Origin: Chimonanthus salicifolius | Lineage: Eukaryota > Streptophyta > Magnoliopsida > Laurales > Calycanthaceae | Direction: 5' to 3' | Assembly: GCA_013350335.1 (NCBI GenBank) | Contig: CM023541.1 | Span: 65,513,999 to 65,577,998 of the forward strand | Length of the DNA: 64,000 bases | In this document: in pieces, positions 2,095 to 64,000 of the stretch | How the letters are laid out: every line of letters starts with the position of its first letter | Numbering within the stretch: position 1 is the stretch's first letter | Made by a program: the position numbers and the translations under genes | Notes under the pieces: model-generated | Seen by the model: only the letters and a program-made list of their open reading frames with translations | Told to the model about the DNA's origin: nothing | The model's database searches: none

Positions 2095-3194
2095 TGGTTT
2101 GGCCATTGCATGGCCAAACCCTAACTGTTATGAAGATGTGGAAAGGACCTCATGTATGTCAAAGATATAGTGAATGATCAAGATGTATGGTTTGGCCTTT
2201 GCATGGCCAAACCCTAGGGTTTCTTGTATGAAAACCATCAAGTAACAAATCATGGAAATATGATTTTTGAAGAATTAATGAACCATAGGGTTCGTCCATG
2301 TTGTATGGCCGAACCCCATGGAAGGATATTAAGTATTTTCCATGGGTTTAAAGGATGAAAACCATGAAATGATTGGTTAATGGTTTTAGGGTTTTTAAAT
2401 GGTTAAATTTTAGTAAATTTTAAAGGGATTAAGTGAGGGAAACCATGGAGAAATGGTGATGATTATTTATGGTCTTAAATATTGCAAATAAAAGTGAGCC
2501 ATGGACCATGGGTTCGGCCATGTTGTATGGCCGAACCCCATGGAGAGATTTTGTGGACTTAGATGTTTTTGGAACCATGGAGATGAAGGGAATGTTGGTA
2601 AGTTTAAAAGGTTTAAAAGTGGTTAATGATGATAACCAAAATGTACGATGGAACCCCCCGTCAAGAAAGGACTTTGTTGTGGATCAAAAATGTGGTAAAT
2701 GATCTAAGAAAAATGAGGAAAATGACATCATGGGTTCGGCCATGTTGTATGGCCGAACCCCATGAGCCATTTTATGAGCTAAGTTTAGGTCTATGCATGT
2801 ACTAAAATGAATGGGTATTAAGTTAAGGAAATGGATGATGTATAATGATTTTTATGTCATGGTTGATGAGTCATTGATGGATCCATGCTTATGGATCAGT
2901 TATGGACATAGATGTGCATGAATGGAAGAAGTGTTTAACCATGGAAGAAGAAGTGGCAAAAAAATGTAAACATGGCCAAAAATGAGGAACCATGGGTTCG
3001 GCCATGGTGTGTGGCCGAACCTCATGGGGGATGGTTGTGGACTTAGGGACTTTTAATGATGACCTTATGTGTTGGATAAATGAACCAAAGGGTGGCTGAT
3101 TTTAGACCCACAAGATTAAATGATCAATGGATCAAATAGGGACCCAAAAACCTAATTAGTGAGGTTCGGCCATGGTGTATGGCCGAACCCCACT
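2095..3194 (+). repeat. Hairpin array, 7 copies, in solo LTR 1
   Basis: Seven imperfect palindromes lie at about 2095-2120, 2189-2213, 2288-2318, 2510-2540, 2731-2765, 2991-3028 and 3159-3194. Arms are GGTTCGGCCAT and ATGGCCGAACC with loops of 3-8 nt, often extended by CATGG/CCATG. The first two have the paired variant GGTTTGGCCA/TGGCCAAACC. Spacers of about 90-250 bp are AT-rich and contain repeated words such as AAACCATGG, which suggests growth by unit duplication. Confidence 0.9.
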
Positions 3195-3632
3195 AAGGCA
3201 TGTATGATGGACTTAGGCATGGTTGAAACATTGGGTTAATGTGTTGATGTGTAATAAGGTAACGGGATCTCACAAGTGGGACGCAATCGTGAGCGGTTGC
3301 CGGATTAAGAAGCAAAGGACACTTGAGTGGTCTTTTGGTAGGATTCCTACATCATTGAACCCATGGATATGTATTATGTATTTATGATGATTTTATTTCA
3401 TGTTTGATAAGTTATTTTGGTATCAAACAATATGTTGCAATTATGGGATTTTCATGCTATGTTTTGTAATATTCTAAAGCATGTTGGCATTTGCATCTCA
3501 TGCATGGCATGGGAGGGATGGAATGTAACTGAAGACCCACGCTTCATCGGGGCGTCCGTAAGTCGTGATGGGTATTTTAACCGGGGACCCACACTCTGTC
3601 GGGTCATCCGTAAAGCACTAGTGGGGGATATC

Positions 3633-8132: not shown

Positions 8133-9206
8133 GTGGGGTTCGGCCATACACCATGGCCGGACCTCACTTATTTTGTTTTAGTCCCTCCTTTGGGTTCTTA
8201 AGCCCAATCACACAATTCCATTGATTTATCCATTTAAACATTACTCATCTAACCCACATAATAACCTAAGTCCAAAAACAACAACTTGTGGGGTTCGGCC
8301 ATACACTATGGCCGAACCTCACCTATTTGATTTTATTCTTTCCTTTGATTCATTACTTCCTAATTTCTTAGTTAATCACTTAACAATAAATCATCCACCA
8401 TTGGTAACCACCTAATCCATAAAACCTTGGTCCATGAAAATCCATCTTAGTGGGGTTCGGCCATACAACATGGTAGAACCTCACAATTTTGGTTTTGGCC
8501 CCTTTTTCAAGTCCTTTGATCTTTTCATTCCATATTTACAATATTGCCATTAGCCTAACCCTTGTTTAACCTTTCGTTTACTTTAATCCATCATACATAA
8601 GTCTCCATTTTGATTTGACCAATTATATTACAAGTTGACTACTTCAAAAGAAACTAAGCCCACCAAATAACCATTAGTGGGGTTTGGCCATACTACATGG
8701 CCGAACCTCACCATATTGATTTTTGTCCCTTTTTCTATCATCTATGATGGCTGATAACTTACTTAATACTAAGTCCCAAGATAACCATATGTGATTCCTT
8801 AATCAAAAGCATATAACCATTAATAATTTCCAACCATGATCTTAACTCTAATTAACCCATAAAAATGGTCTATGGGTATGGCCGAACCCTATGGTTTTCT
8901 TGATTCAAACATTCCAATATTTATACATAGTTCATGCTTAGCACTTTAGCCATAATAACATTATGGTTCAGCCATGCAATTGCCGACCCAAAACCCTAAC
9001 CTTATCTCCATTTAAAACATCTTTAAAACCTTCATAACATGGTATGGTTTTTATCTCTCAAAACCCATAAAAATAACCAAGTCTTTTCATGGGGTTCGGC
9101 CATCCAAAGTGGCTGAACCATATGATCCATGTTCTACCCTTTTTAAACATCATTATCCATGATTTAAACCCTTGATAGGTTCGGCCATACAATGGCCGGA
9201 TCATGT
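8133..9206 (-). repeat. Hairpin array in solo LTR 3
   Basis: Eight units, at about 8133-8166, 8287-8322, 8451-8484, 8674-8711, 8869-8893 (left arm lost), 8960-8990 (decayed), 9085-9120 and 9177-9206. The core GGTTCGGCCATACANCATGGCCGA is recognisable in the better copies, and arm mismatches are scattered. The flanking TGTGGGG/CCTCAC and CATGGGG/CATATG extensions also tend to pair. Confidence 0.88.
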
Positions 9207-11691: not shown

Positions 11692-12682
11692 GGTTCGGCC
11701 ACATACCATCGCCGAACCTCACCCTTTTAATTTGGTCCCTTTTATTTAACCGATCTCATCAAAGTGACCCATTTAAAAACCCCCAATCGACCAAATACAC
11801 CTTGGTGAGGTTCGGCCATACAACATGGCCGAACTTCATCATCTTGGTTTTTGTCCTTTCTTTTCAACCTTTTGATCTTTCAAATCCAATCCTTGCCATT
11901 CTTGATTCATAAAACCCAACACTTTTAAATCAGCCATTCAACCTTATCAACACTTCAAATATATAAAACATTTCCCATGGGGTTCGGCCATACAACATGG
12001 CCGAACCCTTGGTTCATTATTTTCATTTATTTACCATCTTGCCATTGATCCAATTCTTAGTTTCCATTTCATTCATATGTCCATAAAATAAACCATAGTG
12101 GGGTTCGGCCATACTCCATGGCCGAACCTCACTCATTTAACTTGGGTCTCTTTTTAATCCATGATCTATTATTTCCACCCATTAACTCTATTAAAACAGT
12201 CCATAAAATTCAATAACCAAGCAACTTTAAATCCATACATGTTATTTGGTGGGGTTCGACCATGCACCATGGCCGAACCTCATCTCTTATTTTGATCCAA
12301 GCAATCATTAAAACCTTTCTAAAGTACCAACCATCTTCCATCAATTAAACATAAGAGCATACTATCCACCATTGTCTCTCCACGGGGTTCGGCCATATGC
12401 ATAGCCGAACCCTATGGTTCATTAGTTCTGTTAAAACTTATTATACATCTATGATTGATTCTCATACTTCCATCCGTTTAAATCCTTTTAAAACTTTAAC
12501 AAAATCAAACACATACAATTATGATTTCCTTTCTTCAAATCCAATAAAATTAAACCAATATCTTTTCATGGGGTTCGGCCATACAAGGTGGCCAAACCCC
12601 AGGGTCCATGTTTTTCCCTTTTTAAACATCATTAGCCATGATTTTAACCCTTGATAGGTTCGGCCATACAATGGCCGAATCA
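11692..12682 (-). repeat. Hairpin array in solo LTR 2
   Basis: Eight units at about 11692-11722, 11805-11836, 11980-12010, 12102-12132, 12247-12282, 12383-12410, 12569-12600 and 12654-12682. The typical form is GGGGTTCGGCCATACAACAT followed by GGCCGAACCTCA. Spacing is 80-190 bp. The last unit lies just before the inverted splice-donor-like CACTTACCAATCCCG at about 12721. Confidence 0.9.
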
Positions 12683-14979: not shown

Positions 14980-16036
14980 CCAGATCCTGTTGGAATGGGT
15001 GCCCGTCCTGTCTGGTTATGTGCTCTGAATGCTTGTGATTGAGCTGGTCGAGCTGGTGAACGGAAAAAACCCTTGAAGTGTGAAGGTCTATTGTTCTGCG
15101 GACACTCCCTCTTGAAATGGCCCTGCTGGCCACACTGATAACAGGTGTTAACACCTCGAGGAGCCTGAGAGACTGGTCCTGATGTGGATGGCTGATTGGG
15201 ACGAAAACCTCCAGTGGAAATAGTAGAAGTTGAGGTCTCCCAAAGTTGGGTCTGAATCTCTTGTGAGGGCGGAAAGTTCTTCCCCCACTCTGACCTCGTC
15301 GGTTATCCACAAATCTGGTTGTCTCTGTCAGCGCTTATTCAACTATGCTAGCCCGACTGACCACTTCTGCCAAAGTAGTTGACTTGAAAATAGTGACTTT
15401 GGCTCTTATGCTAGGTCGCAGGCCTCGTTCAAACTTTTGGGCCTTCTTGTATTCCGTGTTCACCATGTATAGAGCATAACATGATATACAGAGGAATTCT
15501 TGATACTAATCCACAACAGTCATGGTGCCCTGGACCAAAGATATGAACGTCTGTGCCTGACGCTCTTTCTTCCTCTGGAAAGTAATGATCCAGAAACATC
15601 CCAGCGAACTGGTCCCAAGTCATCTTTTTCCTATCCTCCGCTGGAGTTTGCGCTTGTTGACGTTCTGTTACTTTCCACCATTGCCGGCATCATCTACCAA
15701 TTGTGAAGTAGCCAGTCGTATTCTATCCTCATCACTAACGATCTTAAGTAGTTTCAAGATCTTTGTGATGTTTTCAATCCAATTTTTTGCTCCCTCGGGT
15801 CCCTCTTTCCCTTTGAAATAAGGGGGACGCTACTGTTGGAAATCTCTGACCATGTTTCGGTCCTGCGATTCATTGGAGGTTGTACCTCCATTACCGTTCT
15901 GATGTTGCTGTAAAACGGAGGTGACTACTACTTATACTAGGCTCTGCAGCTCGGGAGGTACCTCAGGAATATTTACACTATCTTGTTCCTCTTCTTGACG
16001 TGGGTTCTGTCTGGTATTTATTCTTCTTGGTGGCAT
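14980..16036 (-). pseudogene. gag: Element B gag remnant with CCHC knuckle
   Basis: On the minus strand an ATG at 16036 opens MPPRRINTRQNPRQEEEQD, a start typical of plant chromovirus gag. The frame then holds a capsid-like segment (YFKGKEGPEGAKNWIENI, near 15750-15810; MTWDQFAGMFLDHYFPEE, near 15565-15623) and a zinc knuckle CYQCGQQGHFKREC (CX2CX4HX4C) at about 15095-15150. At least two in-frame stops occur in the first 80 codons and several frameshifts follow. The 3' end is fused to RT by a deletion that removed protease. Gag would coat the element RNA in virus-like particles; this copy cannot. Confidence 0.85.
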
Positions 16037-16306
16037 TTTCCTAAGTCATTGAAACAATGATTGACTTAGTTTTCTCATAAGATTCTTATGTTCACATACT
16101 TGGGGAAATTGCCTAATCATCATCTTGTATTTCTTGTTTTGGGAAGTTTTCTATATATCATATAATGTTTCTCATTTTGGGGAAATCATGATGTTTTTTG
16201 TTTGAGGAGATACGTCCTATTTCTCTATGTTTGATAAATCCACAATTTATAATGATTGTCCTTCCCTTACTGTTGTTTTTTCTCATCAACTGCTGTTCTC
16301 AGATTG
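16037..16306 (-). other. Element B untranslated leader, 3' part
   Basis: Noncoding minus-strand sequence between the gag start and an inserted LTR. It contains CTTGGGGAAATT and TTTGGGGAAATC words that match the CCCCAA-rich tandem repeats of the leaders at 25000-25590 and 37730-38030. It ends with CAATCTGAGAAC read on the minus strand, which matches the leader of element A at about 24902. Confidence 0.75.
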
Positions 16307-19300
16307 TGTAACGGCCCGCCCTTTTCCAGCCTTCCGAAAATCAGAGTCTAATTTTTTTTTTTTTATATAAATACGTAAAGTGGAAGAGAGCGGGGAGCGT
16401 CACGACGCGATCTAAGTTCGAACTTCTAAAGTCCGACCCTTAACTGGCCACCCATGTGTTCATGGACTAAGTCCATTAAAACCAATCCACACATGGTACT
16501 AAATAAAAAAACTTGCGGAATAATATAAACTGATTGCGGAACTAAACTATTTAGATAGCAAAGTACAAGTCATCTAACCAAAATCACTTAAATCCGATAA
16601 CCATCATCAAAACTATTCACAAACCATAATAATGTTACTAAGTTATTACATGACCATATAAAAGTATCCAAATGTCAATAAATAATTCCATTCCATATCC
16701 AAGCTCCTATGCTTGGCTTCCTTCGCGATCCTCGACCTTTCCTTTTCCCTTTCCTGCGTCATCCACTAAGGATAGAAATAGGGCGTTAGATCAACGCGCC
16801 CAGTATGTCTTCCGATTAGGGTTACCACAAGGTTAGTATAAAACATGCATATATCGTAATAATACATGATCAAAAAAACTTACAAAAACAATGCTATGTA
16901 TGTATGCAAATGTAATGAGTCCCACCCATCACAATTAGACATAGCCATCACTTGACGGGATTCTCATCGTCAAGGTAACCTGTAGTGTTCTTTCGTTTCC
17001 ACTTGATGGGATTCTCATCATCAAGGTATTCCTCCTGGTGGGAGTCTCATCACCTAAGGAGGCCCCACAGTTGCATCACGGACATTCCGACGGAGTGTGG
17101 GCTCCGGTTTTCATATTCATCACCCCATGCCAAGCATGAGATGTCAATGAGTACATGCCATTTGTAAATAAATCTTAACATTCAAATCCCATTTGAAACA
17201 TAATACTTTAACACAAATAACTCATCAAAATCCACATAAAAACAGCAAGTATAATATGTGGTTACAAAGAGGTAGGAAACCTACAGAAAAGTTACTTAAA
17301 CCGTCCGCTCTTCTTAACCCGTCACCCGTTCAGGATTTGAGCACCGTTCAAAAAATCCCGTTACCTTATTTCATGTCAATAAGTCAATACATATACGATT
17401 TGATTTCTAACTAAGTCCAAAACCAAACACAAAACCTTGTGGGGTTCGACCATACCCCATGGCCGAACCTCACCCACTTTGAATTTGATCTTTCTTTGTT
17501 TTTGATCAATACCATCCAGTTAGCTTATTTAAAAACTTCAATCTACAATTATACCTTGGTAGGGTTCAGCCATACAACATGGCCGAACCTTACCACTTTG
17601 GTTTTGACCCCTCTTTCAAGTCCTTTGCTCTTTTCATTCATATTTACAATAATGCCACTAAACTAACCTTTACTTAATATTGCTAATAACCAATGTCCAT
17701 AATAAATCCTCCTTAGTGGGGTTCGGCCATACAACATGGCCGAACCGCACCAACATAATTATGATCCTTTTTAATTAAATCCAAATGCCATTCCAATCAT
17801 CTAATTACTCATACACACATAACATCATAAGTCCATAAAATTGATTAGTGGGGTTCGGCCATACACCATGGCCGAACCTCACTCCCTTGATTTCATGTTT
17901 CAACCCTTTGATCTTCAAGTTAGACACAAGATCATGTCCTTCCATAACCTGATATCCATTATCGTTTTCCATAAAACAAAACCTAATGGGGTTCGGCCAT
18001 ACCCCTTTGCCAAACCTCATTCATTTAACTTGGTTCCTCTTTTAATCCTTAGTTTATTATTTCCACCCATTACTATATTAAAACAGTCCATTAAATCTAA
18101 TATCTGAACAACGTTAAGTCCAAAGATAAACGTATGTGATTCCTTAATCATAAGCCTATAACCATTTATAATTTCCAACCATGTTCTTGAATCCAAATAC
18201 CCATAAAATGGTCCATGGGGTTCGGCCATACACATGGCCTAACCCTATGGTTCTCTTGACTCAATTATTCCATCATTTGTATATGGTTTATGCTCAATAC
18301 TTTAGCCATAACAATAATATGGTTCAACCATCCAATGGCTGACCCAAAACATCAATCTTAACTCCAATTAAAATAACTAAAAACCTCCATAACATTGCAT
18401 GGTTTTTAACTCTCAAAAACCGTCAAAATAACCAAATCATTTCATGGGGTTCAGCCATCCAAAGTGGCCGAACCCTATGATCCATGTGGTCTACCCTTTT
18501 TAAACATCATCTTCCATGGTTTAAACCTTTGATAGATTCGGCCATACAATGGCCGAATCATGCTCCCTTATCCATTTTATTTAATCAAAGATTATGATAT
18601 ACTTACCAATCTCCTTAGCCTCTCTTCTTTCCTTTGATCATTCCTTCCTCCCTTCTTGCTCCTTTAGTCTTTAGCCGATTGTGAGCTTTCATCAATGATG
18701 AAATCACCAAGGGCTGGTTCGGCCAAGGAGGAGGTAGGTTTTGAGAGAGGGAGAGAGATGAAAATCTCTAAGCTTCTTGAGATGAAAATTCGGCCAAAGG
18801 GGTAGTGTACCCCTTTTGTTAATCAGCCCCCCAAATCTTCTCATTTACCCTCATCAATATTGATCTAACCAAGGAGTCCCATGGCTTAACTATGGGACAC
18901 TTGGCTTAAGCTCATGCAACCCCTCCATCTCCCAACGTTGGTGCTTGGGTCTCAATTATGAGATGGAAACCCTCCAAGTTCCCAATGTAATCCTATCTCA
19001 TTCCATTGAATTTTATGTATGGGATACCACTCCCATTCCACCAACGTGTGGGGATTTGCTTTGGGGTCTTTAAAATCAACACAACTCCTCATCTTCCCAC
19101 TTGACTCACTTGAGTTAAAGGTCTCCATGACTTCCAATCCAACTCATTCAACTCATTAGCTCAACTCACTCATTTAATTCCACTCATTTAATTCACATGA
19201 GTCAACTCAATTATTTGATTCCTTTCCAACACAATTCAGCCCCAACTCAACATAATTTAACTCAACCTTTTAGCTCACTTGATGGTCCACATGGTCAACA

Positions 19301-22111: not shown

Positions 22112-23371
22112 GGGTTCGGCCATGTAGTATGGCCGAACCCCATGGCAGGTAATTAAGTAATTTTAATGAGGTTTTTAGGATTAAAAACCATGGAAGGATG
22201 ATTTATGATTTTAAGGTCTTAATGATTAAATGTTAATGATTTTTTTTAAAGGGATTTTAAATGAAGAAAACCATGGAGAGATTTTTATGGATGGAATATT
22301 TTTTGAACCATGGGTTCGGCCATGGTGTATGGCCGAACCCTATGGTGATGTATTTGGAATTTTAATGGGTGTAAAATATGAAAAAAATAATGGAGAACAT
22401 TGGTAGCCTTGATGGACCAAAATGTATCTAATGATGATTAAGGAATGATGATTTAAATGTATGATTTAAATTCCCTCATGGTGGAACTTATGGTGGAGCT
22501 AAATAATGTAAATGGGTCCAAGAAAAAAAAATAAGAAAAAGACATCATGGGTTCGGCCTTGGTGTATGGCCGAACCCATGACCCATTTGAGAGCCATTTT
22601 ATGGGCTAAGGTTAAGTCCATGCATGTGTCTAGATGATTGGGGATTTGATTAAGTTATGGCTGTTTTTAATGTTTTCATGTCATGGTGGATGGATCATTA
22701 GTGGATCCAAGTTTTATGGATCAGTTATGAGTCTAAGGATGGAAAATAAAATGAGAACTTAACCATAGAAGAAGAGTGGCAAAATGGTAAATATAGGCCA
22801 AAATCAAGAACCATGGGTTCGGCCATGGTACATGGCCGAACCCCATGGAGGATGATCATGGACTTAGGTGTGTTTAAAGATGACCTTATGTATGGATAAA
22901 TGAAGCATAGGTTGCTGGATTTTAAACCCATGACCCAATTGTGAACCAATTGATGGGCTAAGATTAAGGTCTATGTATATGCTTTAATTAATGGGAATTA
23001 GGTTAAGTTAATGGCTGATTTTTAAAAGGCTGTATCTCATGTTTGGTGAGTCATTAATGGATCCAAGATTATGGATCAATTATGGGCCTAAGAATGGAAA
23101 AGTAAAATGAGAACTTAACCATGGAAGAAGTAGTGGCAAAATGGTAAATATGGGCCAAAATGAAGAATCATGGGTTCGGCCATGGTGTATGGCCGAACCC
23201 CATGGGGGATGTTTGTGGACTTTAGGGCTATAAGTAATAGTCTTAATTGCTGATTTATGGAGTCTAAGGTTGCTGATTTTTAGACTCACTAATTGGAATA
23301 TTTAATGGGTTAAGATGGGACCCACAAACCTAGATAGTGAGGTTCTACCATGGTATATGGCCGAACCCCAC
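22112..23371 (+). repeat. Hairpin array in element A 5' LTR
   Basis: Six units at about 22112-22145, 22311-22346, 22546-22580, 22811-22848, 23167-23204 and 23338-23371. The form is CATGGGTTCGGCCATG, loop GTGTA or similar, then TGGCCGAACCCCATGG; the outer CATGG/CCATG extends the stem. The spacers share CATGGTGGATGGATCATTA-type words, so pairs of units look duplicated. Confidence 0.9.
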
Positions 23372-33274: not shown

Positions 33275-33283
33275 TGTAACACC

Positions 33284-37500: not shown

Positions 37501-37640
37501 GTTGGTATCAGAGCGAAACGGGAAGTTGAATCTTCCGAAGTAAGATTAAGACGGTTTCATGTCTCACTGGCGGATAAGAATCCCAACTGACCGACTCTTC
37601 GGAGTCCGCTGAATGAGGGTCGGATTAATTTACTTCGTAG
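37501..37640 (+). other. LARD-like element primer binding site and leader
   Basis: TTGGTATCAGAGCG at 37502-37515 is the tRNA-Met primer site. The leader retains AATCTTCCGAAGTAAGATT and GACTC-TTCG-GAGTC (37593-37606), as in A. Retention of this leader in an element that codes for no gag-pol supports a cis function such as packaging. Confidence 0.92.
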
Positions 37641-38688: not shown

Positions 38689-38699
38689 GTATGCAACTT

Positions 38700-43200: not shown

Positions 43201-44512
43201 CATATGAATGGCCGAACCCCATAGATTGTTTTGTTGGAGATTATGACTTGGTTGTATGAGTTGGATTAAGTAAACATATGGATTTATCTTTGGACTTAGT
43301 GATAAGTAAATAACCAGCCACTAAGGTAGATTACTTTTATGAACTTTGATTATGAGCAAGATTAGACATTGGTTATACCAATGGCAAATCTGTGAATACA
43401 AGTCAAACGAAGGGATTGATCAAAGGACTCACATGATGTAGTTGGGTCTTAGATATGAATGAACAAGTAAGTGATAGTATGATTTATTGATTGTTATATG
43501 GATAAGGTACCGGAAGTTGAACGACGTGCGAGTCGTGACCGGGTGACGCGAAAGAAAGATCAAGTACTGAAGTGAATCTTCAGTAGGTTTCCTACCTTTA
43601 TTGTAACCACTATTTAATATGCTGTTTTATGTTGATTTCGATAACTTATATGATTGTAAAGTTATGTTTCTAAATGACATGTTAGCATAGACATCTCATG
43701 CATGGCATGGGATGATGGTGTTGTAACCGGAGGCCACACTCCGTCGGGGCGTCCGAAAGACCACTGTGGGGTACCCTGATGATGAGAATCCCATCAGGAG
43801 GAATCTGGAGGCCACACTCCGTCGGGGCGTCCGAAAGACCACTGTGGGTTACCTTGACGATGAGAATCCCGTCAAGTGATGGCTATGTTGAATGGTGATG
43901 GGTGGGACTCATTACATGTTCATTTCATACATAGCATGTTTTTATGGAATTTTGTCTCACATGTATTATTATTATGTATATGCATGTTTTATATGCTAAC
44001 GTGTGGTAGCCCTGATTCGGGAACCTACTGGGCGCGTTGATCTAACGCCCTAATTCTATCCTCAGAGGAGATTGCAGGTACAAGCAAGGGGAAAGGAAAG
44101 GTCATTGACCAGGAGGGGAGCTGAGCCTAAGTGCTTTAATGATAGATTTGGATTACGTTATATTACTGTCATTTGAATACTATTGTTGGACATGTAATAA
44201 TTCGTTATTTGCTATGGTTTGATTAGGATAATAACCTGTGGATGGTTGATCTATGTTATTTAATATTTAAGACTGTTACTTGCTATCTCGTCTTTCTATT
44301 CCGCAATTATCTAGATTATTCCGCATGTTGATGTTAGTTCCATGTGTGATTCACTATCATGGTCTATTCCATGTATACATGGGTGGCCAGTTAAGGTTCA
44401 GACTTGGGTAGTCTGAACTTAACTCGCGTCGTGACGCCGCCCGCTCTCTTCCGATGTTTATTTTAAAAAAAAAATTAGACTCTGAAATTCTCGGAAAGGG
44501 CGGGGTGTTACA
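40288..44512 (+). mobile_element. LARD-like element 3' LTR (4,225 bp)
   Basis: Nearly identical to 33275-37500. Examples of differences: GTGGGACTGAAG against GTGCGACTGAAG, CAGCACAGG against CAGCAGAGG, GAGCTTGG against GCGCTTGG, ATTCAGGAAC against ATTCGGGAAC. The hairpin array (about 41750-43220), putative intron (41701-44065), two-unit CCGTCGGGG repeat (43730-43880) and GGGCGCGTTGATCTAACGCCC (44030-44050) are all present. It is followed by the duplication GAGTT at 44513-44517. Confidence 0.95.
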
Positions 44513-46533
44513 GAGTTAGTGGGGCCGGCAACCATGGTTGACTTGGTCAACCATGGGTGGATTAATGGAGAAGAATCAAGGAGATTAAAGGAGTTAATTG
44601 AGAATTAATTAACCTAAGTTAAGCATTTAATTAATTAATTAATTAAGTTAGTCAAATGGGGAGTCAAAGAGATAAGTCAATGGGTGGTTTCATCTCATTG
44701 AAACCACCCAAACCACTCAAAGAAAACACAACTAAACCATGGGCTTAGGGTGGTGGTTTCATCTCAACCACCACCACCCAAAGCATGATGACCTATACCC
44801 CTCCATGATGATGGTCAAATAGTCAAGATGGAAGACCAAACCACTCCATCTCAAGTCACCAAAACCGTTGGCTTGGTGGTGGTTTTGTCCCAACCACCAC
44901 CACTAAGGCATGTAAGCCCATGCTTGGTGGGTGGAGGGAAATGATGGTGGAATGTAGCTTAGTCAACCAAGATGAGATGGGTTTCATCTCATTTCTCCAT
45001 TCCATTTCCATCTCCCTCTCTCCCTCCCTCTCTAAAACCGTCCCCACTCTCACAAGACCAAAGAAGAAGAGACTTAGAAGAAAATAAGGAAAGTTCAAGC
45101 TTGGCCGACCACCAGCACTTCAAGATCAAGACTTGGGATATTTTCCCATCCTCCCCTCCCCTTCCTCTCTCAAACCCACTCCATCATTGGCCGACCCAAA
45201 CCTTGATGATCTCATTTTGATCAAACACATCTTGGCCGAAAATCAAGGAGAAGAAGAAAGGAGAAAGACTAAGGATCCAAGAGGAGAAAGAAAAGCCGAG
45301 GGAGCCGTCGGATTGGTAAGTATCTCTAAAAGATGTTATTTTTTTTTTTTTAAGGTTTAAAAATGGAGTCCATTTCTTAGATTAAATGGTGGCCAAAAAT
45401 GTTATGGGCCATGGATCTAAGATCCATCCAAGGAAGGGATGAGAAATGGACAAAATGGGTAAGATAGGTTAAGAAAAGAAAAATAAAGGAATGATAAGGA
45501 CACTATGTATTTAAGGTTTTCTTAAGCATGGAAGTATGGATTTTTGAAGGAATCATAGACCATAGGGTTCGGCCATGTAGTATGGCCGAACCCCATGGTA
45601 GGTAATTAAGTAATTTTAATAAGGTTTTTAGGATTAAAAACCATGGAAGGATGATTTATGTTTTTAAGGTCTTAATGATTCAATGTTAATGATTTTTTTT
45701 AAAGGGATTTTAAATGAAGAAACCATGGAGAGATTTTTTTGGATGGAATATTTTTGAACCATGGGTTCGGCCATGGTGTATGGCCGAACCCTATGGTGAT
45801 GTATTTGGAATTTTAATGGGTGTAAAATATGAAAAAAATAATGGAGAATATTGGTAGCCTTGATGGACCAAAATGTTTCTAATGATGATTAAGGAATGAT
45901 GATTTAAATTCCCTCATGGTGGAACTTATGGTGGAGCTAAATGATGTAAATGGGTCCAAGAAAAAAAAAATAAGAAAAAGACATCATGGGTTCGGCCATG
46001 GTGTATCGCCGAACCCATGACACATTTGAGAGCCATTTTATGGGCTAAGGTTAAGTCCATGCATGTGTCTAGATGATTGGGGATTTGATTTAGTTAATGG
46101 CTGTTTTTAATGTTTTCATGTCATGGTGGATGGATCATTAATGGATCCAAGTTTTATGGATCAGTTATGAGTCTAAGGATGGAAAATAAAATGAGAACTT
46201 AACCATGGAAGAAGAGTGGCAAAATGGTAAATATAGGCCCAAATCAAGAACCAGGGGTTCGGCCATGGTACATGGCCGAACCCCATGGAGGATGATCATG
46301 GACTTAGGTGTGTTTAAAGATGACCTTATGTATGGATAAATGAAGCATAGGTTGCTGGATTTTAAACCCATGACCCAATTGTGAACCAATTGATGGGCTA
46401 AGATTAAGGTCTATGTATATGCTTTAATTAATGGGAATTAGGTTAAGTTAATGGCTGATTTTTAAATGGTTGTATCTCATGATTGGTGAGTCATTAATGG
46501 ATCCAAGATTATGGACCAATTATGGGCCTAAGA
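44513..46533 (+). mobile_element. Element A 3' LTR, second part (3' end lost)
   Basis: Resumes A's 3' LTR after the LARD-like element and follows 21063-23090 of the 5' LTR: GGTTGACTTGGTCAACC, TTTCATC hairpins, CT/AG leader, donor GATTG|GTAAGT (45316), then hairpins at about 45566-45595, 45760-45795, 45986-46018 and 46252-46288. It stops at CCTAAGA where LTR fragment C begins; the last 1.65 kb of A's LTR are not found downstream. Confidence 0.9.
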
Positions 46534-48525
46534 TGTAACACCCTGATTTCTCAATGATGTGGATAATTACGAAAATGCCCTTCGATTTGGTAAATTTAAT
46601 AATTATGATGTTAATTGAGAAAATGGTGGGGGCCCATTGCTCAAACTAAGATCCTATGAACATATTATAAGGGTCAAATTATATTGGATGGGTAATTTCT
46701 CAATGAAGCGGAAAATTACGAAAATGCCCCTGAGTTAGTAAATTAATTATTTTGTGATGATAAATAAGGAAATGGTGGGGCCCATTGCTCAAATTAAAAT
46801 CATATGAGCACATTATGAATGTTAAGTTTGATTGGTTGGGTAATTTTCATCATTTGGGTCAAAAATGGCTAAATGGGTCAAAGGGCCCAAATGGGACCCA
46901 TAGGGTCAAAATGGATGATTTGACCGTTTTGTGAATTTAAATTAAATGGGGTTAAGATTATTTGATTGTAAATCAAGTGTAGAAGAAATGGGTAGGCTTG
47001 ATCCATATGCAAAAACCGATTACAAATGACCAAAATACCCATAATTGGGTCATGGAGTCAAAAAAAGGGGTCAAGGAGCTAAAGGTGGACCCAACGGGTC
47101 GGGTTGACTAGTTTGACCACGGATGACCGTGTGGGCCCTCAATGGAACTCAAGTGTGAGATAATTCAGCTTGAGTTGGACTGATTTGGAGTGAGTCTAAA
47201 TTAAGAAAAGAGTTGACTCAAAGATGAAGCATTAAATGTGATGAGTTGCGTTGGAATAAAAATATCTTGAGTTGGGTGAGTCAAAAATGGAAATCCAAGG
47301 GACTGTAAATCAGTGAGTTTAATGGTAATTTGAAGAGGTTGACTGGTCTCAAACCAACCAAAACAAGTCCCACACGTTGGGGACTTGTTTTGGTGAGTTC
47401 AATGGTGTATGATTAATGGAAAAACATGGGTTTTGAGATGAGTTGCTTGGGGATCTGAATGGCTGTATGGGTAGCTGCCAAGGGGTGCCTTGGAGGGCAC
47501 CCAATACCCATGTTTTGTGCATGGATTGATGAGGAAGTGGAGGGGTTATGGTGGCTGAAATACAAAACCAATGAACACCATCACTTGGCCGATTTATCAT
47601 GGCAAAGCCTAAGATTTTCCTCATCTCTCTCTCCCTCTCTCCTCTCTCCAATTCGTTGTTCTTCCTAGCTGGAACATCAGAGGATTTTACACTAGTAGAT
47701 CAAGCACAAAACAGCAAAAGAAAAGAAGAAATAAAAGGGAGAAAACAAGGATCAAAGACAAGGAGGAAGTTTGGAAAATTTGGTACGTATCTTTATGATA
47801 TTTTGGTTTAAAAACATAAAACAAGTAGGGTATGTATTTGGCCATGGTGATGGCCGAATACACCAATGTTTAACCTTGATTATGGAGGATTTAAAATGGT
47901 GAAAATAACCATTGGGTTCGGCCACCATGGAGGGCCGAACCCCATGTAAAAGATTGCATGGTTTTCATGTTTTGGAAACATGAAAACCATGGGTTTTATG
48001 GACTGATTTTTGGGTCATTTTGTGGCCGAAATAAGTAAGGTTTTAAAGTGTGATGATAAGGTTTAAAGGATGGAAATTGAGAACATGGAGTTCGGCCACT
48101 TTGGATGGCCGAACCCCATGGAAACAATTGGTTGATTTGGATGGTTTTTGGAATTTAAAGCCATACAAGTATAGGACTGTTTTTAAGATGTTTTATTGAA
48201 CATAAAATGTATGTTTTAAAAAGGTTAAAACATGGACTTGAAGGTCATCAAGGACTGAAGTTTATATGGTCTAAACAAGTGGATTAAAAGATGGAAATGG
48301 ACCATTGGGTTCAGCCACTTTGCATGGCCGAACCCCATGGAAACAAGTGGATGATGGTGATGGTTTTTGGAAATTAAAACCATATAAAATGATGAACTGT
48401 TATGGGTGTTTAAATCATGAAATTGGATGTCATGTTTGGGCCATGGAATGGCCGAATACTTCAAGAAAATAAAACCTTGGATTAAGTTGATTAAAATGGT
48501 GTAAGTGTATCATTGGGTTCGGCCA
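46534..48525 (+). mobile_element. LTR fragment C (5' 2 kb), fused to element D pol
   Basis: Begins TGTAACACCCTGATTTCTC, two tandem copies of the LTR start unit (46546, 46697), GGGTC words, AG-rich leader, a donor-like GGTACGTA at about 47782-47789 (GTACGT in place of GTAAGT), then hairpins near 47837, 47912-47944, 48090-48120 and 48302-48340. In the middle of the next hairpin's left arm (GGGTTCGGCCAC) it changes without a gap into protease codons. It belongs to the LARD-like/solo LTR 5 subfamily, not to D's LTR type, so the junction is an illegitimate join. Confidence 0.87.
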
Positions 48526-53233: not shown

Positions 53234-54568
53234 AGGGTTCGGCCATGTAGCATGGCCGAACCCCATGGCCAATGTGGATGATTTTTAATTAGGGTTTGAA
53301 GGTTTAAAAGTATGGAGAATGATCAATGGTTTTATGAGGATTTCAAGATGTTAAAATGATTAAAAGTTGATAAATTTTAAGAGGTTTTGAATAAGGAAAT
53401 TTCATGAAAATATGGGTGATCTTTCATGGCCTTGAAAGGCATAGAATGGAATGAATGGATGACCATAGGGTTCGGCCATGTAGCATGGCCGAACCCCATG
53501 GTGAATAATGAGTGATTTATTAAGGTTATTAGGTTTAAAGATAATGAAGAAAAATGATAAATGTAAATGGACTTATTGAGTATGGAATGTGAGGTTTAGA
53601 TGGAATGAAAATGGTGATGATTTAGTGATTTGAAAATAGATTATTTTGGGACAAAATTAATGATTTTCATGAAGATCTTAAAGTTGGTAATAGATGGTAT
53701 TTTGTTGATGGAAATGAGGAAATGATTGGTGGTAGAAGTGGAATTTAAATGTAATTAAAAATCCAAGATAAAAATAAGGGAAAGACATCATGGGTTCGGC
53801 CATGGTGTATGGCCGAACCCATGACCCATGTTTTAGGTCATTCATGGGCTAAGTATGGTTTATATATGTGCTTAAATGAATGGAAATTAAGTTAAGTTAA
53901 TGATGAAATTTAAATGGATGTTACAAGTATGATATGTGATGTTTAAATGGAATAAAGATAGTGATTGAAATGGATGATTGAACTTTTATTGGAGGTATGT
54001 TTAAATGGGTAATTGAAACCAAGAAGGATGGGGAAAGAAACATCATGGGTTCGGCCATGATGTATGGCCGAACCCATGACCCAAATTTTGATCAATTTTA
54101 GGCTAAGGTTAATGCATGTATCAATGCCTAGGAGGTTGTTTTAAAGGGCCAAAATGAATGAAGATTTGTGATTTTTGAAATGGATTATTTTTGGGACAAA
54201 ATATGAGTCTTTGAAAATGGCACCAATAAAAGTGAACCATGAACCAAGAAATTAGGAAATGGACATCATGGGTTCGGCCATGGTGTATGGCCGAACCCAT
54301 GACCCCTTTGGGAGCCATATTATGTGCTAGGTATGGAATTAATTATGGGATTAAATATTTACAAATTTAATTAAACTAGAGGGCTGATTTTATGATGTTA
54401 TGTCATGATTAAGAAATTATAAATGGGTCCAAGTTTATAGGTCAAATATGGACTTAAATATGCATGGATAAAAGGGGTAACTTAACCATGGAAGAGGAGT
54501 GGCAAAACCGTAATTTGTGGCCACATTGAAGGACCATGGGTTCGACCATGGTGCATGGCCGAACCCTG
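53234..54568 (+). repeat. Hairpin array in element D 3' LTR
   Basis: Six units at about 53234-53268, 53467-53500, 53788-53822, 54045-54080, 54266-54302 and 54535-54568. The third to fifth are flanked by GACATCATGGG and CCCATGACCC, extending the stem to ATGGGTTCGGCCAT/ATGGCCGAACCCAT. Near-perfect arms are retained although spacers are diverged. Confidence 0.92.
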
Positions 54569-55986: not shown

Positions 55987-58900
55987 AATATCATCCATAG
56001 CATTAAAATATAATCCATAGCATTTAAAATATCATCCATAAAATAAACCATATAATTACCGAAATAAAATACGGAAATCATCACATACACATAATCCACG
56101 GCTTACAAAAAGGTAGGAATCCTACCGAATACCGCTTAGCGTCCCTTTACTTTTTCGTTCGATAATCCGGTCGCCGATCGCGTACTGTTTGCGACGTCCC
56201 GATACCTTATTATACATTTAATAAATTAGTCCATATTTTATCCATGATTAAGTCCCTAATTGATCACAACCTTAGATCCATTAATGATCCCTAATCATGT
56301 TACAAGATTATCATAATTCAGCCTTTAACTTAACCTCATTTCCATTGATTTAAATACATGCATAATTCCAAGTTCTAGCCCATTAAACATTCTCATTTTT
56401 GAGTCTAAAACGCAGCAACCCTAAGTTTCATTTAATCACTCATAATGTCATCTTAATGTACTCAAGTTCATGTCCAACCTACATGGGGTTCGGCCATGTA
56501 CCATGGCCGAACCCATGGTTCCTCAATTGTGGCCAATAATTACTATTTTGCCACTAGACTTCCATGGTTTAATATTCCCTCCATTCATGTATATTTTTGT
56601 CCATAATTCATCCACATACTTAGTCCCATTAATGATTTAATGACCATGACATAACATCCCTAAAATCAGCCACTTAATTTAATTAAATTTGCAATCATTT
56701 AATCCCATACATAATCTAATATTTAGCCCATAATATGATGACCTACAAATGGGTCATGGGTTCGGCCATACACCATGGCCGAACCCATGATGCCTATTTT
56801 CCATTTTTCTTGGGTCCATTCTACCTCATTTGTCCTACCATAAATAAATTTAAATCATACATTTAAATCACCCTTTCATAACCATCATGAGATTTACTTT
56901 GGTCCATTTAATTTAACCATCATTCCATTTTATTTTCCATGGTTCCAAGACCCCATATTTTCCTCAAAGTCTCCTCATGAGGTTCGGCCATGTACCATGG
57001 CCGAACCCATGGTCCATAATTTATTTTAAAAGCCTCATTTCCACTCATTTAAAACCTTGTTTAAAATACCTTTAAAAAAAATCCACTTAATTACCATTAA
57101 CCTTCTTCATTAATTTCCACACTTCCATAACCATTTAACTCATCATTTCATCACCATAGGGTTCGGCCATACACCATGGCCGAACCCATGGTTCATGATT
57201 CTCCATTTTCCCATGCCTCTTGAGGCCACAAAATCATTCATATACTCCATGATTTTTCCTCATTTAAACCTCTTTAAATTTTTCCAACATTTAACCCTAA
57301 AAATCATAATCATTCTCCATGGTTTTAAACTTTAAAACCATAATTAAAATCATCACCCATTTACCATGGGGTTCGGCCACACTACATGGCCGAGCCCTAT
57401 GGTCCATCAATCCATTCAAAAACCCATGCTTCATGCTTAATCCATTTAATTCCATAACCTCCTTAATCATTTTATTTTTCTTAATCTATCTCTCCCATTT
57501 CATCCATTTCCCATCTTATTATTGGATGGATCTTATATCTAAGGCCCATAACTTCTGTGGCCACCATCCATTCTAAGAAATGGGTTCTATAAATACATCT
57601 TAACCTTTTAAAAAATATAAATTCTTGTTTAAGAATTTCTTACCACACCGACGACTCCTCCGGTCTTTCTTTGCTCCCGTCGGACTCCTTGGCCTCCTTC
57701 CTCCTTCCTTTTGATCTTTGGTCGGCCAAGATGCTTGATCAATGGTGAACCCCTCCATACTTAGGATCGGCCAAGGTAGGGTTTGCTTGAGAGAGGGAAG
57801 AGAGGAGATGATATGAAGAACTACCCAAGGTCTTGAGTGATGGACTTATGCTTGCACTTCCTTCTCTTTTCTTCTCTTCTTCTTCTAAGTTTTTTCTTCT
57901 CCTTTTCCTTAGAGATGAGGGACGGTGGTGAGAGGGTGGAGGAGAGAAATGAGAGTGTAGCTTGGGTGGTAAGGTGAAAGCTATCCAATCCTTTGGTTCC
58001 TTAGCCTACACACTTCCATGATGGTTCTCACCCACCAAGCATGGTTCCCTTGTCCTTGGTGGTGGTGGTTGAGGCCAAACCACCACCAAGCCAACGGTTT
58101 GGTGTGTGTTTGAATGAGTGGTTTAGTCTTCCTCCCCTTTGACCACTTGACCATATGATGAGAGGTATGGGTCCCCATACCTTGAGTGGTGGTGGTTGAG
58201 ATGAAACCACCACCCTAAGTCCATGGTATTTTTGTGTTTCTTTGGGTGGTTTCAATGGGATGAAACCACCATTTGACTTACCCCTTTGACTTATCCATTT
58301 GACCCTAATTAGACCAACCTAATTAATTAAATTAAATCCTTACTTAGGTTAATTAATTCCTATTTTATTTAATTCCATTAACTTCTCTTTCTAAGAAATC
58401 CACCCATGGTTGACCAAGTCAACCATGGTGGACGGCCCCCACCAACACCTACCCTACCCGCCACCTCACTTGATGAGGTGGAGGTGGGCCCCATTCGGCC
58501 ATGTCACTTAAACCCCATTATTCTTAACTTAGGTGATTTAAAATAATTTAATTAACTTAATCCACTTTAATTGTCCTTAGTCCCCTTAACCTATCCATGG
58601 TTGACCAAGTCAACCATGATGGTCGGCCCCACCTTTTCCCTGGTCAACACGCCACCTCACTTGGTTATGCTAGCTTAATCATCTCATCATTAACTTACGG
58701 GGGTTTAATTCCAATTCAACCCATTCCAATCAATTGGGTCACCATTGGGCCCATGGCCCAATTAAATTATTTTCTACCATTTACCTTAGAGTTTGAATCA
58801 TTTTGATCCATTGGGTCCCACATGGTTATCGGGCCCGCTTTGACCATTATTGACCCTTTAAATGGATTCCATCCAATCCATGGTCCATTGGACCATACTT

Positions 58901-59227: not shown

Positions 59228-61832
59228 ATCAAACCCATCCCAGCCGTTGAGAGTAAAGAGGTTCCTTGGCAAAGCCAAGGGACACCAAGGTTGGGCGGCA
59301 TCATGCATCTCATGAGATGCATGTGTCAAATATGAAGAGATGCAACGTTTGGGTGAAAGGGTGTCTTGGATGACAAATAATATCCCATCGTTTTTGGCAA
59401 AATTTAATGAGGGAAAATGAATGGAAGATGGGGCTGAAATTACAGAAGGGAAAGACCACCATTGTTGGCCGATTTTCATTTTGAAAATCCAAAGAATTCC
59501 CATCTCTCTCTCCCTCTCTCCAAACTCATTTTCTTGGCTGAAATAGCAGAGCTGTTTGCATAGCTAGTCAAGCAAAAAACAGCAAAGGAAGGAAGGTAAA
59601 GAAGGATTGGAAGTAAAGATTAAAAACAAGGAAGTTTGGTAAGTGTTTAGTTGTTATTTTGGTTTAATAAAATGGAACAAATGGAGCATGTAATGGGCCA
59701 TGGTTATGGCCGAATGCATCAAGGTTTTAACCTTGGATTAGATGGCTTAAAAGGATAAGAAAATATGCCATTGGGTTCGGCCATCTTGGTTGGCCGAACT
59801 CCATGAAAAATATGGATTGGATTTGATGTTCTTAAAGGTCAAAAACCATGCCAAGCCATGCTGATTTATGCACATGTTAATTGGGTCATTTTGTGCCCGA
59901 ATTAAGTAAGGTTGTAAAGTGTGTTTATAAGGTTTAAAGAATGGAAATTTAGAACATGGAATTCGGCCACTTGGGATGGCCGAACCCCATGGAAATAATT
60001 GGTTGATTTGGATGGTTTTTGGAATTTAAAACCATACAAGTATGGGATTGTTTTTAGATGTTTTATTAGACTTAAAGTCCATGTTTTAAAAAGGTTAAAA
60101 CATGGACTTGAAGGTACCATGGATATAAATTGATAAATAGACCATTGGGCTCGGCCATCTTGGATGGCCGAACCTCATGAAGTGTTATGGTCATTTGGAT
60201 TGTGTTTTCATAAAGTGAAAACCATGCAAAGTAATGGACTGATTTGGAGGGTTTTGAGAGGTAAAAACCCGGTATTTTTTTACTGATTGTTACATGTTTA
60301 AATGAGACTTAAAACATGTTTATGAGGACCAAGACATGGACATAGGGTTCGGCCACTTTGGATGGCCGAACCCCATGAAAGTATTTGGTGATTTTGGTGA
60401 GTTAAAAAACATATAAGATTATGGTGTTTTATGTGATTTGATGAAGATTAATTTGCTGTTGTTGGTTGGCCAATATATGGCTGAACCATGTCAATGTTAG
60501 GGTTAAATTACTGATTCAAATCATGGATAGATGATGGACCAATTAAATCAAGAGAACCATTGGGTTCGGCCTTGTGCATGGCCCAACCCCATGGGCTGTT
60601 TTTGGGTGGAAAGATTGGATTGAATTCCATTGGTAACTGTGATGTGTTTATGTATTGATTTAAAGAATGATTTAAAGGAGCAAATAAAGATGTGAGGTTC
60701 GGCCTTGGGTATGGCCGAACCCCACCAAGGTGGTTTGGTCATAGTCAAGGATGTTTAAGGAAAAGGTTGGTCTCAATGGCATAATAGTAGTTTTGGGAGA
60801 AATGATCAAAGGAAGAATGATCATAGGTATCGTTGTATGGACCCAAAACAAAGGGGTATGGTTCGGCCATGCTGTATGGCCGAACCCTACCAAGGTGTTT
60901 TTGTAGAATTTGATGCTTAATAGAGATTAAACGAATGAGAAACCAAATGATAAATAGGTGAGGATCGGCCATGGGTATGAAAATAAGGTATCGAGACTTT
61001 CGAGAACGGCGTACGAGTCGTGAACGGCTGACGACTAAGAAAGATCAAACACTGAAGAGAATCTTCAGTAGGTTTCCTACCTACTTGTAACCACATTTAC
61101 ACTTATTTTCATGATGTTTTTTATGAGATATTGTCATACTAGTACTTATCATATTTTGAATGATGAGTTATGCATTTACAAATGACATACAAAGCATTGG
61201 CATCTCATGCATGGACATGGGATGATGACTGAGGATATGCTGTGTTGCAATTATGAGTTACCGTCCTCCTTAGGCGATGAGAGTCCCACCAGGAGGAGTA
61301 ACATGATGATAAGAGTCACATTGGTCTCCTTAGGCGATGAGAGTCCCGCCAGGAGGACTAATATGTGATATGAAACAACTCAATGATGAAGTATCTTTCC
61401 ACAGGTAACGAGGATTACTGTGGATTACCTTATCATGTGAGTCCCAAGTGGAAGTGTATTGTGATTTACCTTGATGGTGAGAGTCCCGTCAAGTGATGGC
61501 TATGTATGTGTGATGGGGTGGGGCTCATTACATTTGCATACATACATAGCATGGTTTTATATGTTTTTTTTTATAATCATGTACTATGATATATATGCAT
61601 GTTTTATATGCTAACCATGTGGTAGCTATGATCGGGAACCTACTGGGCGCGTTGATCTAACGCCCTAATTCTATCCTTAGAGGATAATGCAGGAACAAGG
61701 AAAGAGAAGGTCGATGACCGGGAGGGGAGCCAAGCCTGGGCGCTTGAATGTTGAACTAGACTTCTTTATTATTGTCTTTTGAATTATAGTTTGTGGACAT
61801 GTAATAAGTTAATACTTTGCTATGGTTTGATT
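59228..61832 (+). mobile_element. LTR fragment F (5' part missing)
   Basis: Starts inside an LTR of the LARD-like/solo LTR 5 subfamily, at the part before the CT-rich leader (CATCTCTCTCTCCCTCTC near 59501). Donor TTTG|GTAAGTG is at 59639. Hairpins lie at about 59698-59712, 59773-59803, 59960-59992, 60143-60178, 60343-60378, 60463-60487, 60560-60592, 60693-60724 and 60858-60890. Then follow the conserved block (60985-61080), repeats CTCCTTAGGCGATGAGAGTC (61264, 61323), GGGCGCGTTGATCTAACGCCC (61645-61665) and acceptor CTATCCTTAG ending at 61680. It is cut at 61832 within GGTTTGATT by LTR G. Confidence 0.88.
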
Positions 61833-64000
61833 TGTAACGCCCCGCCCTTTATCACCCGTTTTCCGAAAATCAGAGTCTATTTTTTTTTTTTTTAAATAGA
61901 AGAGTGAGAGAGGGCGCGGACGCCACGACGCGAGTTAAGTCCGAGCTTCTAAAGCCCGGCCCTTAACTGGCCAACCCCACGCGTGCGCGGAGCTAAGTCC
62001 ACGAGAATGGTTCACGCGTAGGAAGTAAGCTCGTGGATTATGATTATTGCGGAACATGATAATAAAGTCTATCCTACCTGTTTTTAAATAGAAGGGAAGA
62101 TACAACATTGAATTACCAAAATACCCCTATGTTCATATTTGTATCACAAAATATAATCGTCCATATGTAACGTCCAAACCATCGCAAGAAATGTAAACTT
62201 ATACAACCCGACAAGCTAAGTTACTTTAAAATTACATCTCCAAAATGTAAACGTAAAGAAACTAAGACTGCGCTACCCAAGCTCCAAAGCTTGGCTCATG
62301 TCATGTCCACCGCTTCCGCCATCCCCTGCGTCATCAGCTAGGGTAGAAGTAGGGCGTTAGTCAACGCGCCCAGTAGGACTCCGAGTAGGGCTAGCACATG
62401 GATTAGTGGTAACACACATACCGATAAAGTAACATATAACAAAATAAGAATGTAATGAATGTTATGCCATGGGTGCTTATGTCATGTGTCCCACCCATCA
62501 TCCGTATGATCATACAATGTATTATCCCCATGTCTGCTTCTCGGTCGCCCCGACGGAGCATGGACTCCGGTTATAGCATAAGAGCTATCCCCATGTCTGA
62601 TTCTCGGTCGCCCCGACGGAGCATGGACTCCGGTTATGACCCCTCAGCTATCCCCATGTTTGCTTCTCGGTCGCCCCGACGGAGCATGGACTCCGGTTTG
62701 TTTATTTTTTTCTGCCCATGCCATGCATGAAATGTACGTACATTATGCTATGTAGTATATAAATAAACCATAATTTGATATCCCATACATAGTCATATAA
62801 TGCATACTATTAAAATATAATCCATATGATTCCTGACTTAAAACTCATCATAAGATAAATCATAATCATAAATCTATCATAAACCAAATCAAAATAATTT
62901 AAAACACCATCACATATCCATCGCTTACAAAGAGATAGGAATCCTACCGAATACCGTGTCGCATTCCGTTACGCTTCTCGTTCGATAATCCGGTCGCCGA
63001 TCGCGTACCGTTTGCGACGTCCGATACCTTATTACATTTACCGAATTAGTCCCTACGTTATCCATGATTAAGTTCATAATTGATCCATCTACTTAGACTC
63101 ATTAATGGTCATTAGTTATGTTACAAATTTATCGAAAATCAGCCCTTTAACTTAGCCTCATTTTTCGTGGTTTAAAACACATACATAAACCCGATTTTTG
63201 GCCAATTTAGATAATTCCAATTTGCGGCCTAAAACGCAGCAACTAATCGCTTCACTTAACCATTCACAAAATATCCGATTTTTGTGTCTAATCCCTATAG
63301 GGTTCGGCCATGTACCATGGCCGAACCCATGGTTCTTCAATGTGGCCACTTATTACGGTTTTGCCACTCTTCTTCCATGGTAAATCATCCATTCATTTAT
63401 GTGCATTCTAAGTCCAAGATTCATTCATACTTAGGTCCATTCAATCATGACCTAGCATCATAAAATCAGCCACCTAATATTTAATTTTGAAAAACATTTA
63501 CTCCCACACCTAATTCCACATTTTGGCCTAAGGTGTGGCCCACATATCATGGCCTCCAAATGGGTCATGGGTTCGGCCATACCATGGCCGAACCCATGTG
63601 CCTACTTTCCATTCCCTTGGGTCCATTTTACTCCCTTTAATCCAATCTCAAATGAATTTAATCTATCCATTCAAGTCCCCATTTTCACTCCATTTAAAAC
63701 CTCACATATCATTTTTTATAAATCCATTAAAATCTAGCATTCTTCTACATCATTTTCCATTTATTAAAAATCCACTAATCACTACCCTAAGGTTCACCAT
63801 TTTCAAAGACTAGGTTTTGTCCCAAAATAATCCAATTTTAAATCACAAATCTTCATTCTTTTTGGCCCTTTAAAACAAACTCCTAGGCATTGATACATGC
63901 ATTAACCTTAGCCTAAAATTGATCAAAATTTGGGTCATGGGTTCGGCCATACACCATGGCCGAACCCATGATGTTTCTTTCCCCATTTTTCTTGGTTTCA
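61833..64000 (-). mobile_element. LTR G, minus strand, runs off the window
   Basis: Starts TGTAACGCCCCGCCC at 61833, the minus-strand LTR 3' end. It contains terminal hairpins (ACGCGTGCGCGG), CCAAGCTCCAAAGCTTGG (62278-62295), GGGCGTTAGTCAACGCGCCC (62352-62371), the inverted three-unit 63-bp array, GATAGGAATCCTACC (62934-62948), the CGGTCGCCGATCGCGTACC block, and hairpins at about 63297-63330, 63565-63598 and 63936-63970. It has the same type as D's LTR. The left target-duplication candidate is TGATT (61828-61832); the partner is outside the window. Whether it is a solo LTR or the edge of a full element is unknown. Confidence 0.92.
62525..62713 (-). repeat. 63-bp tandem repeat, 3 copies, in LTR G
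   Basis: TCCCCATGTCTGCTTCTCGG begins at 62525, with relatives at 62588 and 62651, a strict 63-bp period. It is the reverse complement of the array at 55124-55312 and has the same copy number, which suggests the three-unit state is fixed in this subfamily. Confidence 0.92.

Follow-up and report, generated by a model that had tools for sequence, protein, structure and literature searches.

Clustered palindromes are known from the long terminal repeats (LTRs) of Sireviruses, a genus of Ty1/copia retrotransposons. The available part of the comparative account describes their RM boxes as palindromic motifs of 10-20 bp, present in 8-32 copies per element and 3-14 copies per 3' LTR, which are mostly confined to 300-500 bp in the upper LTR half, upstream of the TATA box; a CGG-CCG core occurs in all elements of its Table 3 but Tnd-1, and the boxes are termed Sirevirus-specific against classic retrotransposons (PMC2829016). 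In the excerpts of two maize studies, the palindromes of Sireviruses appear as hotspots of small RNAs (PMC5311732) and are predicted to form strong secondary structure, and Ty3 elements were generally found to be without such a palindrome peak (PMC10760457). Here we describe a 64,000-nt stretch of the Chimonanthus salicifolius genome (contig CM023541.1 of assembly GCA_013350335.1, positions 65,513,999 to 65,577,998; hereafter the window), in which arrays of one hairpin-forming palindrome are carried by elements that, judged from their pol sequences, are plant Ty3/gypsy retrotransposons. A first-pass annotation of the window had recorded these arrays and held that no named LTR feature matches them; the observation was confirmed, and the second statement was wrong in part, the palindromic CGG-CCG repeats of Sirevirus LTRs being close in the published extract (PMC2829016). 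As in Sireviruses, many clustered LTR copies of one CpG-containing palindrome are present, mostly well conserved inside an element, and this high-copy palindrome has a CGG-CCG core; hairpin clusters within LTRs also recall the maize hairpin and small-RNA regions as far as the extract describes them (PMC10760457). Unlike in Sireviruses, the carriers belong to Ty3/gypsy, an unrelated pol lineage, stems are longer, at 11 to about 17 bp with loops of 2-5 nt as against motifs of 10-20 bp, and the array lies behind a splice-donor-like site, with companions to some hairpins; its placement is probably another one. Palindrome arrays as such are known from Sirevirus LTRs; the Ty3/gypsy carrier and the donor-like signal are new here, and the leader, that signal, the companion hairpins and the C-poor, nearly CpG-free spacers are additions to the first-pass annotation.

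Hairpins were defined by two 11-base arms with at most 6 mismatches in total (no more than 4 of them in the left arm as read on the plus strand), and loops of 2-7 nt were searched. Where about 70 or more copies had been claimed, we counted 101 paired hairpins of the form GGTTCGGCCAT-(2-5 nt)-ATGGCCGAACC; motif start positions numbered 102, against 0-3 per run in 40 dinucleotide shuffles of the window. Exact arms lay inside a paired hairpin in 103 of 104 cases, the lone exception being at 8878. Leaving out the 11 hairpins in the 3' LTR copy of one element, A, gave a set of 90, in which both arms were exact in 30 and carried at most two mismatches in 76, and loops measured 5 nt in 65, 4 nt in 11, 3 nt in 13 and 2 nt in one. 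Predicted RNA energy per hairpin with 8 nt flanks averaged -23.4 kcal/mol, at or below -10 kcal/mol for 89/90. The hairpins form arrays of up to 11, with units 80-370 bp apart spanning 0.6-1.6 kb, and these occur on both the plus and minus strands, as had been claimed. The further claim that they occur only inside LTRs stood in so far as the arrays are mutually alignable, align with the LTRs of elements A and B1, and overlap none of the listed pol frames in the window; both LTRs were identified for A and B1 only, the remaining carriers being LTR-like by similarity. No Rfam match reached the gathering score in the window, and the exact palindrome with a 5-nt loop had no match in viral and prokaryote contig collections, which says little about plants.

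The arms had also been claimed to be kept better than the spacers, beyond what simple decay would leave, and a test named beforehand and run within the window agreed on both counts. The main set comprised 34 one-direction LTR alignments, each 250 columns or longer and no more than 99% identical, with the 3' LTR of A left out. Because hairpins were picked on one sequence per alignment, the alignment partner was not preselected; with sequences in common, the alignments are not independent of one another. Identity was 92.4% in arms, 89.3% in five-base flanks, 75.2% in loops and 70.7% in spacers, and arms exceeded spacers in 34/34 alignments (86/87 with both directions and all copies). This contradicts, within the window, the view of the array as an evenly decaying remnant of an old tandem duplication; the related units of about 220 bp held by type A arrays would suit such an origin, which is nonetheless barely credible given the arms and given that loops lie close to spacers. 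Changes were more frequent in the 5' than the 3' arm (82 vs 41), with the 5' higher in all 7 LTR groups, and distinct variants numbered 49 and 23, respectively. Comparison of the 5' and 3' LTRs within an element showed no arm protection, in small numbers: with gaps not counted, the LTRs of A differ at 2/242 arm and 2/1086 spacer letters, and those of B1 at 2/88 and 17/838. With no protection after insertion, the constraint more likely acted on replicating elements, and selection probably operated during element replication.

Covariation was examined in the 65 hairpins with a 5-nt loop (60 distinct rows; the other 25/90 were left out). Of the cells in a 17-pair stem, 83.7% were paired, cells changed on both sides of the extended stem numbered 64 against 24.7 +- 4.1 in shuffles, and the extended-stem covariation score was 0.157 against 0.075 in shuffles and 0.028-0.078 in slid controls. 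Outer-stem types CCAT/ATGG, GGTG/CACC and TCATG/CATGA each pair with their own partner, often across one mismatch or bulge, although the outer pairs gained were at most two in 19/90 hairpins; mean outer-flank pairing, 3.69, was reached by 0/2000 random re-pairings overall and 0/2000 within LTRs. In these alignments, the predicted outer stem was shown to hold its pairing through changes on both sides. Folding z-scores for three array pieces ranged from -6.3 to -8.9 on both strands, whereas three further LTR pieces gave -1.4 to -3.7 and a single pol piece gave -0.3 and -1.0.

Such matching could also be produced without function, by quasi-palindrome correction or template switching during reverse transcription. 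Compensating arm changes (12 vs 2.6 expected) would fit, as would the enrichment of hairpins of many other sequences in the window, where perfect stems of at least 8 bp with loops of 3-12 nt number 168 against 5-22 in ten first-order Markov sequences, 106 of the 168 not belonging to the main motif. Correction, however, equalises the two arms of a hairpin, yet one arm sequence is constant among LTRs whose spacers are about 70% identical. Likewise, CpGs persist in arms and are almost absent from spacers (observed/expected 0.83 and 0.067; 162 and 19 counted), and we consider mutational upkeep improbable. Across 13 arrays together, spacers hold 9.2% C and 23.5% G on the sense strand, 22 CpGs in 11.7 kb, and 60 ATGs per kb where 26 are expected. 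Still less probable is that the hairpins persist as a small-RNA source, being diced to guide silencing, as proposed for the Sirevirus palindromes of maize that the published extracts describe as small-RNA hotspots (PMC5311732, PMC10760457). It is hard to see why replicating elements should be selected to keep a silencing trigger; small RNAs would be a side effect. In general, plant Dicer products measure 21-24 bp, and stems of 11 to about 17 bp fall below this. Taken together, the array is a real and structural feature that appears, from these comparisons, to have been selected at the element level, which suggests that the hairpins act for the element's RNA or its control.

A second conserved feature lies upstream of the arrays. 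At 14/14 visible 5' edges, corresponding to at most 12 insertions as A and B1 are each counted twice for their two LTRs, a donor-like GT occurs 40-250 nt before the array; the sequence is GTAAG at 12/14 edges and TTGGTAAGT at 9/14, with GTACGT and GTATGT at the remaining two. In LTR A, the splice-donor-like GGTAAGT (34689..34695, plus strand) precedes the array and closes a predicted leader exon (34532..34689, plus) which is CT-rich, then GA-rich, and without ATG; the stretch closed by the site has this CT-rich then GA-rich makeup in general. GGTAAGT stands in the same place before further arrays at 1849, 21861, 41701, 45315 and 59638 (plus) and at 9244, 12723 and 18601 (minus), and GTAAG at 28311 and 53011 (plus) and 57639 (minus). 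Counted over 10 LTRs by distance from the donor, ATG is above expectation 450-300 nt upstream (50 vs 28.0), at it from 300-200 nt (18 vs 18.0), and below it from 200-100 nt (5 vs 9.9) and 100-0 nt (3 vs 18.8), giving 8 in the 2000 nt of the last 200 positions against 28.7 expected; past the donor it rises to 46 vs 23.8 in the first 100 nt and 112 vs 50.0 in the next 200 nt. Among permutations of these three letters, only ATG swings that far above, below, then above expectation around the donor. This would be the pattern expected of a translated leader followed by an intron.

Candidates for the other end of such an intron were found in two places. The best conserved LTR block (37013..37053, plus strand, in LTR A) reads CTACTGGGCGCGTTG(a)TCTAACGCCCTA.TTCTAyCCT.AG, also written CTACTGGGCGCGTTG.CTAACGCCCTACTTCTACCCTAG, is of the GGGCG...CGCCC type, and was recognisable in 11 aligned LTR ends and in 10 scanned LTRs. 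It carries a branch-like CTAAC and a pyrimidine-rich AG, and may represent a branch point with 3' splice site; it could instead be the start of R, placing the array in U3 as in Sireviruses. The array is downstream of the predicted leader, and a TATA-like stretch precedes the block, hence follows the array, in types A, C and D and is missing in type B. The second candidate is ACTTAG (16046-16041, within 16034..16060, minus strand), a possible acceptor; the probable gag ATG of element C (16036-16034), the sole gag start found, lies 4 nt beyond it, and a junction there would make the gag ATG the first ATG after it.

Our first choice, tentative and held at somewhat under even odds, is that the array is a selected cis-acting retrotransposon element working as folded RNA, in unspliced RNA, with a DNA-level control element close behind. 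Under the folded-RNA reading, transcription would start upstream of the leader, and splicing of the gag mRNA would join the leader exon to sequence beyond the array, perhaps immediately ahead of the gag ATG, and so take out the ATG-rich array, which may therefore lie in a predicted intron of that mRNA. Unspliced genomic RNA would retain the row of stem-loops, and these might flag it to be packaged, dimerised or exported, or restrain splicing and translation. Counted in favour of this reading are the excess of arm over loop and spacer identity, the outer-stem pairing, the variable loop length, the fold z-scores, the lower number of changes in the 3' arm, the C-poor sense-strand spacers, the donor-like sites and the ATG profile. 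The retroviral packaging signal sits between the major splice donor and gag, and the array resembles it in having stem-loops and in its position relative to splice donor and gag; the likeness is by position only, as the array consists of near-identical hairpins in succession and lies within the LTR. In plants, the part of the BARE study available reports a spliced Gag-only RNA beside a separate replication RNA (PMC3735527), with an intron of 104 nt and a junction just past the gag coding domain, whereas the intron predicted here starts in the LTR leader. Closer in layout is the soybean Ty3/gypsy element Diaspora, for which splice donors were predicted in the LTR and acceptors at the gag start codon; its authors stated in 2005 that the relevance was unknown and that no intron upstream of gag had been reported for any LTR element, and the portion of the account available mentions no hairpin array, unlike here (PMC1142308). 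This was the only paper that our literature search on LTR introns found, and work elsewhere is possible. A fuller proposal, in which the LTR leader of these Ty3/gypsy elements has a 5' splice site followed by up to 11 near-identical stem-loops present in unspliced genomic RNA only, as a multi-copy packaging or RNA-fate signal independent of Sireviruses, is doubtful in its entirety.

A number of observations weigh against the folded-RNA reading. Antisense folding is as significant as sense against shuffles, and mismatch cells show no excess of G-T over A-C (24 vs 32 over 90 hairpins; 21 vs 19 without the loop-closing pair), which counts against RNA because RNA selection should favour G-U; with no bias in mismatches, G-U wobble was dropped as a proof of RNA selection. 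Counts of both-side-changed pairs and of further pair types are no higher than in shuffles, related sequences are counted repeatedly in the covariation, and most of its signal comes from few outer-stem types. In the 100 nt before the donor, other permutations of the ATG letters are also low (GTA 4, TAG 10, AGT 11, TGA 13, against 18.8 expected; GAT is at 22), which makes composition responsible for some of the ATG deficit. Scored as a splice site, the donor does well and yet never comes first, ranking 2-7 among the GTs of its LTR in the 12 ranked. The acceptor next to gag comes from one element, an R region of great length would be atypical, and the conserved block was dropped as the acceptor of an ATG-free second exon since ATG is not depleted downstream of it.

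Part of this evidence would be met by control at the DNA level, in which a host or element protein binds the CpG palindromes as a dimer, the array serves as an enhancer, insulator or anti-silencing platform, and transcription starts downstream near GGGCG...CGCCC. The lack of RNA strand bias, the near-invariable pairing of exact arms, the concentration of array CpGs in arms, and the TATA-like stretch before the conserved block in types A, C and D all fit such a role, and with ATG undepleted past the block no mRNA leader exon is required there. The core TTCGGCCAT..ATGGCCGAA also bears the CGG-CCG signature of Sireviruses, the TTTTCGGACWTRTCCGAAAA of Osr9 being close in the part of the account available (PMC2829016). 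Conversely, loop lengths of 2-5 nt break the fixed spacing of a dimer site and favour a stem-loop, because a dimer site tolerates such variation less. Furthermore, constraint differs between the two arms, the outer stem is kept through differing sequences, type B is without the TATA-like stretch, and the ATG-poor stretch ending at the donor-like site is left unexplained. We regard control at the DNA level as a real possibility, at roughly one chance in three by our reckoning, and retain the folded-RNA reading ahead of it.

The assignment of the carriers draws on pol, in which reverse transcriptase, RNase H and integrase follow in this order within one frame. Among 7977 pol matches, the 120 listed are mostly about 55-66% identical, the named ones come from many flowering plants, and the 120 include proteins named Ty3-gypsy and Ty3-I, some with PF00385. 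LTRs with TG...CA ends, a primer-binding site (PBS) beside the 5' LTR, and the reverse transcriptase-RNase H-integrase series, all expected of Ty3/gypsy LTR retrotransposons, were found spread over different elements, and membership of Sirevirus was ruled out by an integrase lying after rather than before reverse transcriptase. The integrase tail presumably resembles the Tekay/Del chromodomain; Pfam Chromo scored 15.6 bits on a 114-amino-acid piece (E 0.015), below the cut-off of 25.1, and was not found in two further pieces. Sense strands were set by PBS and pol direction, and the orientation of the remaining LTR-like pieces was taken from how they align with A and B.

Element A (33275-44512) looks non-autonomous and has the target duplication GAGTT. 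Its 5' LTR (33275..37500, plus), TG...CA and 4.2 kb long, is 99.6% identical to the 3' LTR (40288..44512, plus), and directly behind it is a PBS (37503..37514, plus) that we take to match initiator tRNA-Met; the end of LTR B1, at about 24743, likewise has an initiator tRNA-Met-like PBS behind it. A frame of element A (38048-38485, plus) gave a weak zinc-knuckle match (20.5 bits vs cut-off 27), its sole database relative being one protein of 178 amino acids with 47% identity, and a tandem repeat of about 101 bp occurs at 39187-39643. Past the PBS, the internal region holds repeated units with TTTCCCCAA or TTCCCCAAG (25216-25498 and 37869-37948), and tandem repeats in the later LTR part contain CTCCGTCGGGGCG in one orientation or the other (36717-36862, 43729-43874, 55122-55295 and 62523-62698).

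Element A appears to be nested in the 3' LTR of B1, and a probable type A solo LTR (about 27240-31157) lies inside the pol of B1. The array of LTR A holds 11 hairpins (34732..36206, plus; copied at 41744-43218), that of the solo LTR 9 (28442..30005, plus), a truncated type A array with donor-like GTACGT upstream 5 (47835..48458, plus), and a further type A array 9 once overlapping matches are merged (59691..60886, plus). Arrays of element B1 and of type B comprise that of the 5' LTR of B1 with 6 hairpins (22113..23367, plus), that of its probable 3' LTR, split by the nested insertion of A, with 4 (45566..46282, plus), and three of type B with 6 (53236..54565, plus), 5 (56487..57396, minus) and 3 (63301..63966, minus; cut by the window end). 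Also identified were arrays C (17443..18559, minus; 9 hairpins), D (11692..12681, minus; 8), E (2096..3189, plus; 7) and F (8137..9202, minus; 7). A single hairpin (392..416, minus) is probably the first of a shortened array, its assignment to an LTR fragment being drawn solely from the adjoining leader and GTATGT.

Some main hairpins are followed by a companion, H2, of the form ATGGTTTT...AAAACCAT, for example at 35085..35108 (plus), 25 nt past a main hairpin. There were 53 matches against 0-27 with scrambled arms, 39 of them in array spacers or flanks and 21 situated 23-28 nt past a main hairpin; these span types A-F, with a weak copy in D. H2 was dropped as a unit of every main hairpin, being present after some only, and GGACTTAG was dropped as a general spacer motif, occurring in 6/76 spacers. 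Downstream of main hairpins, folding energy shows a modest excess, of similar size on either strand. Other strong U3 hairpins, e.g. CCATGGTTGACTTGGTCAACCATGG and TGGGTGGTTTCATCTCATTGAAACCACCCA, were seen at 21078, 21227, 21294, 33098, 44532 and 58055-58428, and recur between type B copies.

A conserved array of this kind in Ty3/gypsy LTRs would imply either two or more origins of the design known from Sireviruses or a greater age than assumed so far. Its link to a conserved splice-site-like signal opens to testing the question of how plant retrotransposons keep RNA for translation apart from RNA for packaging.

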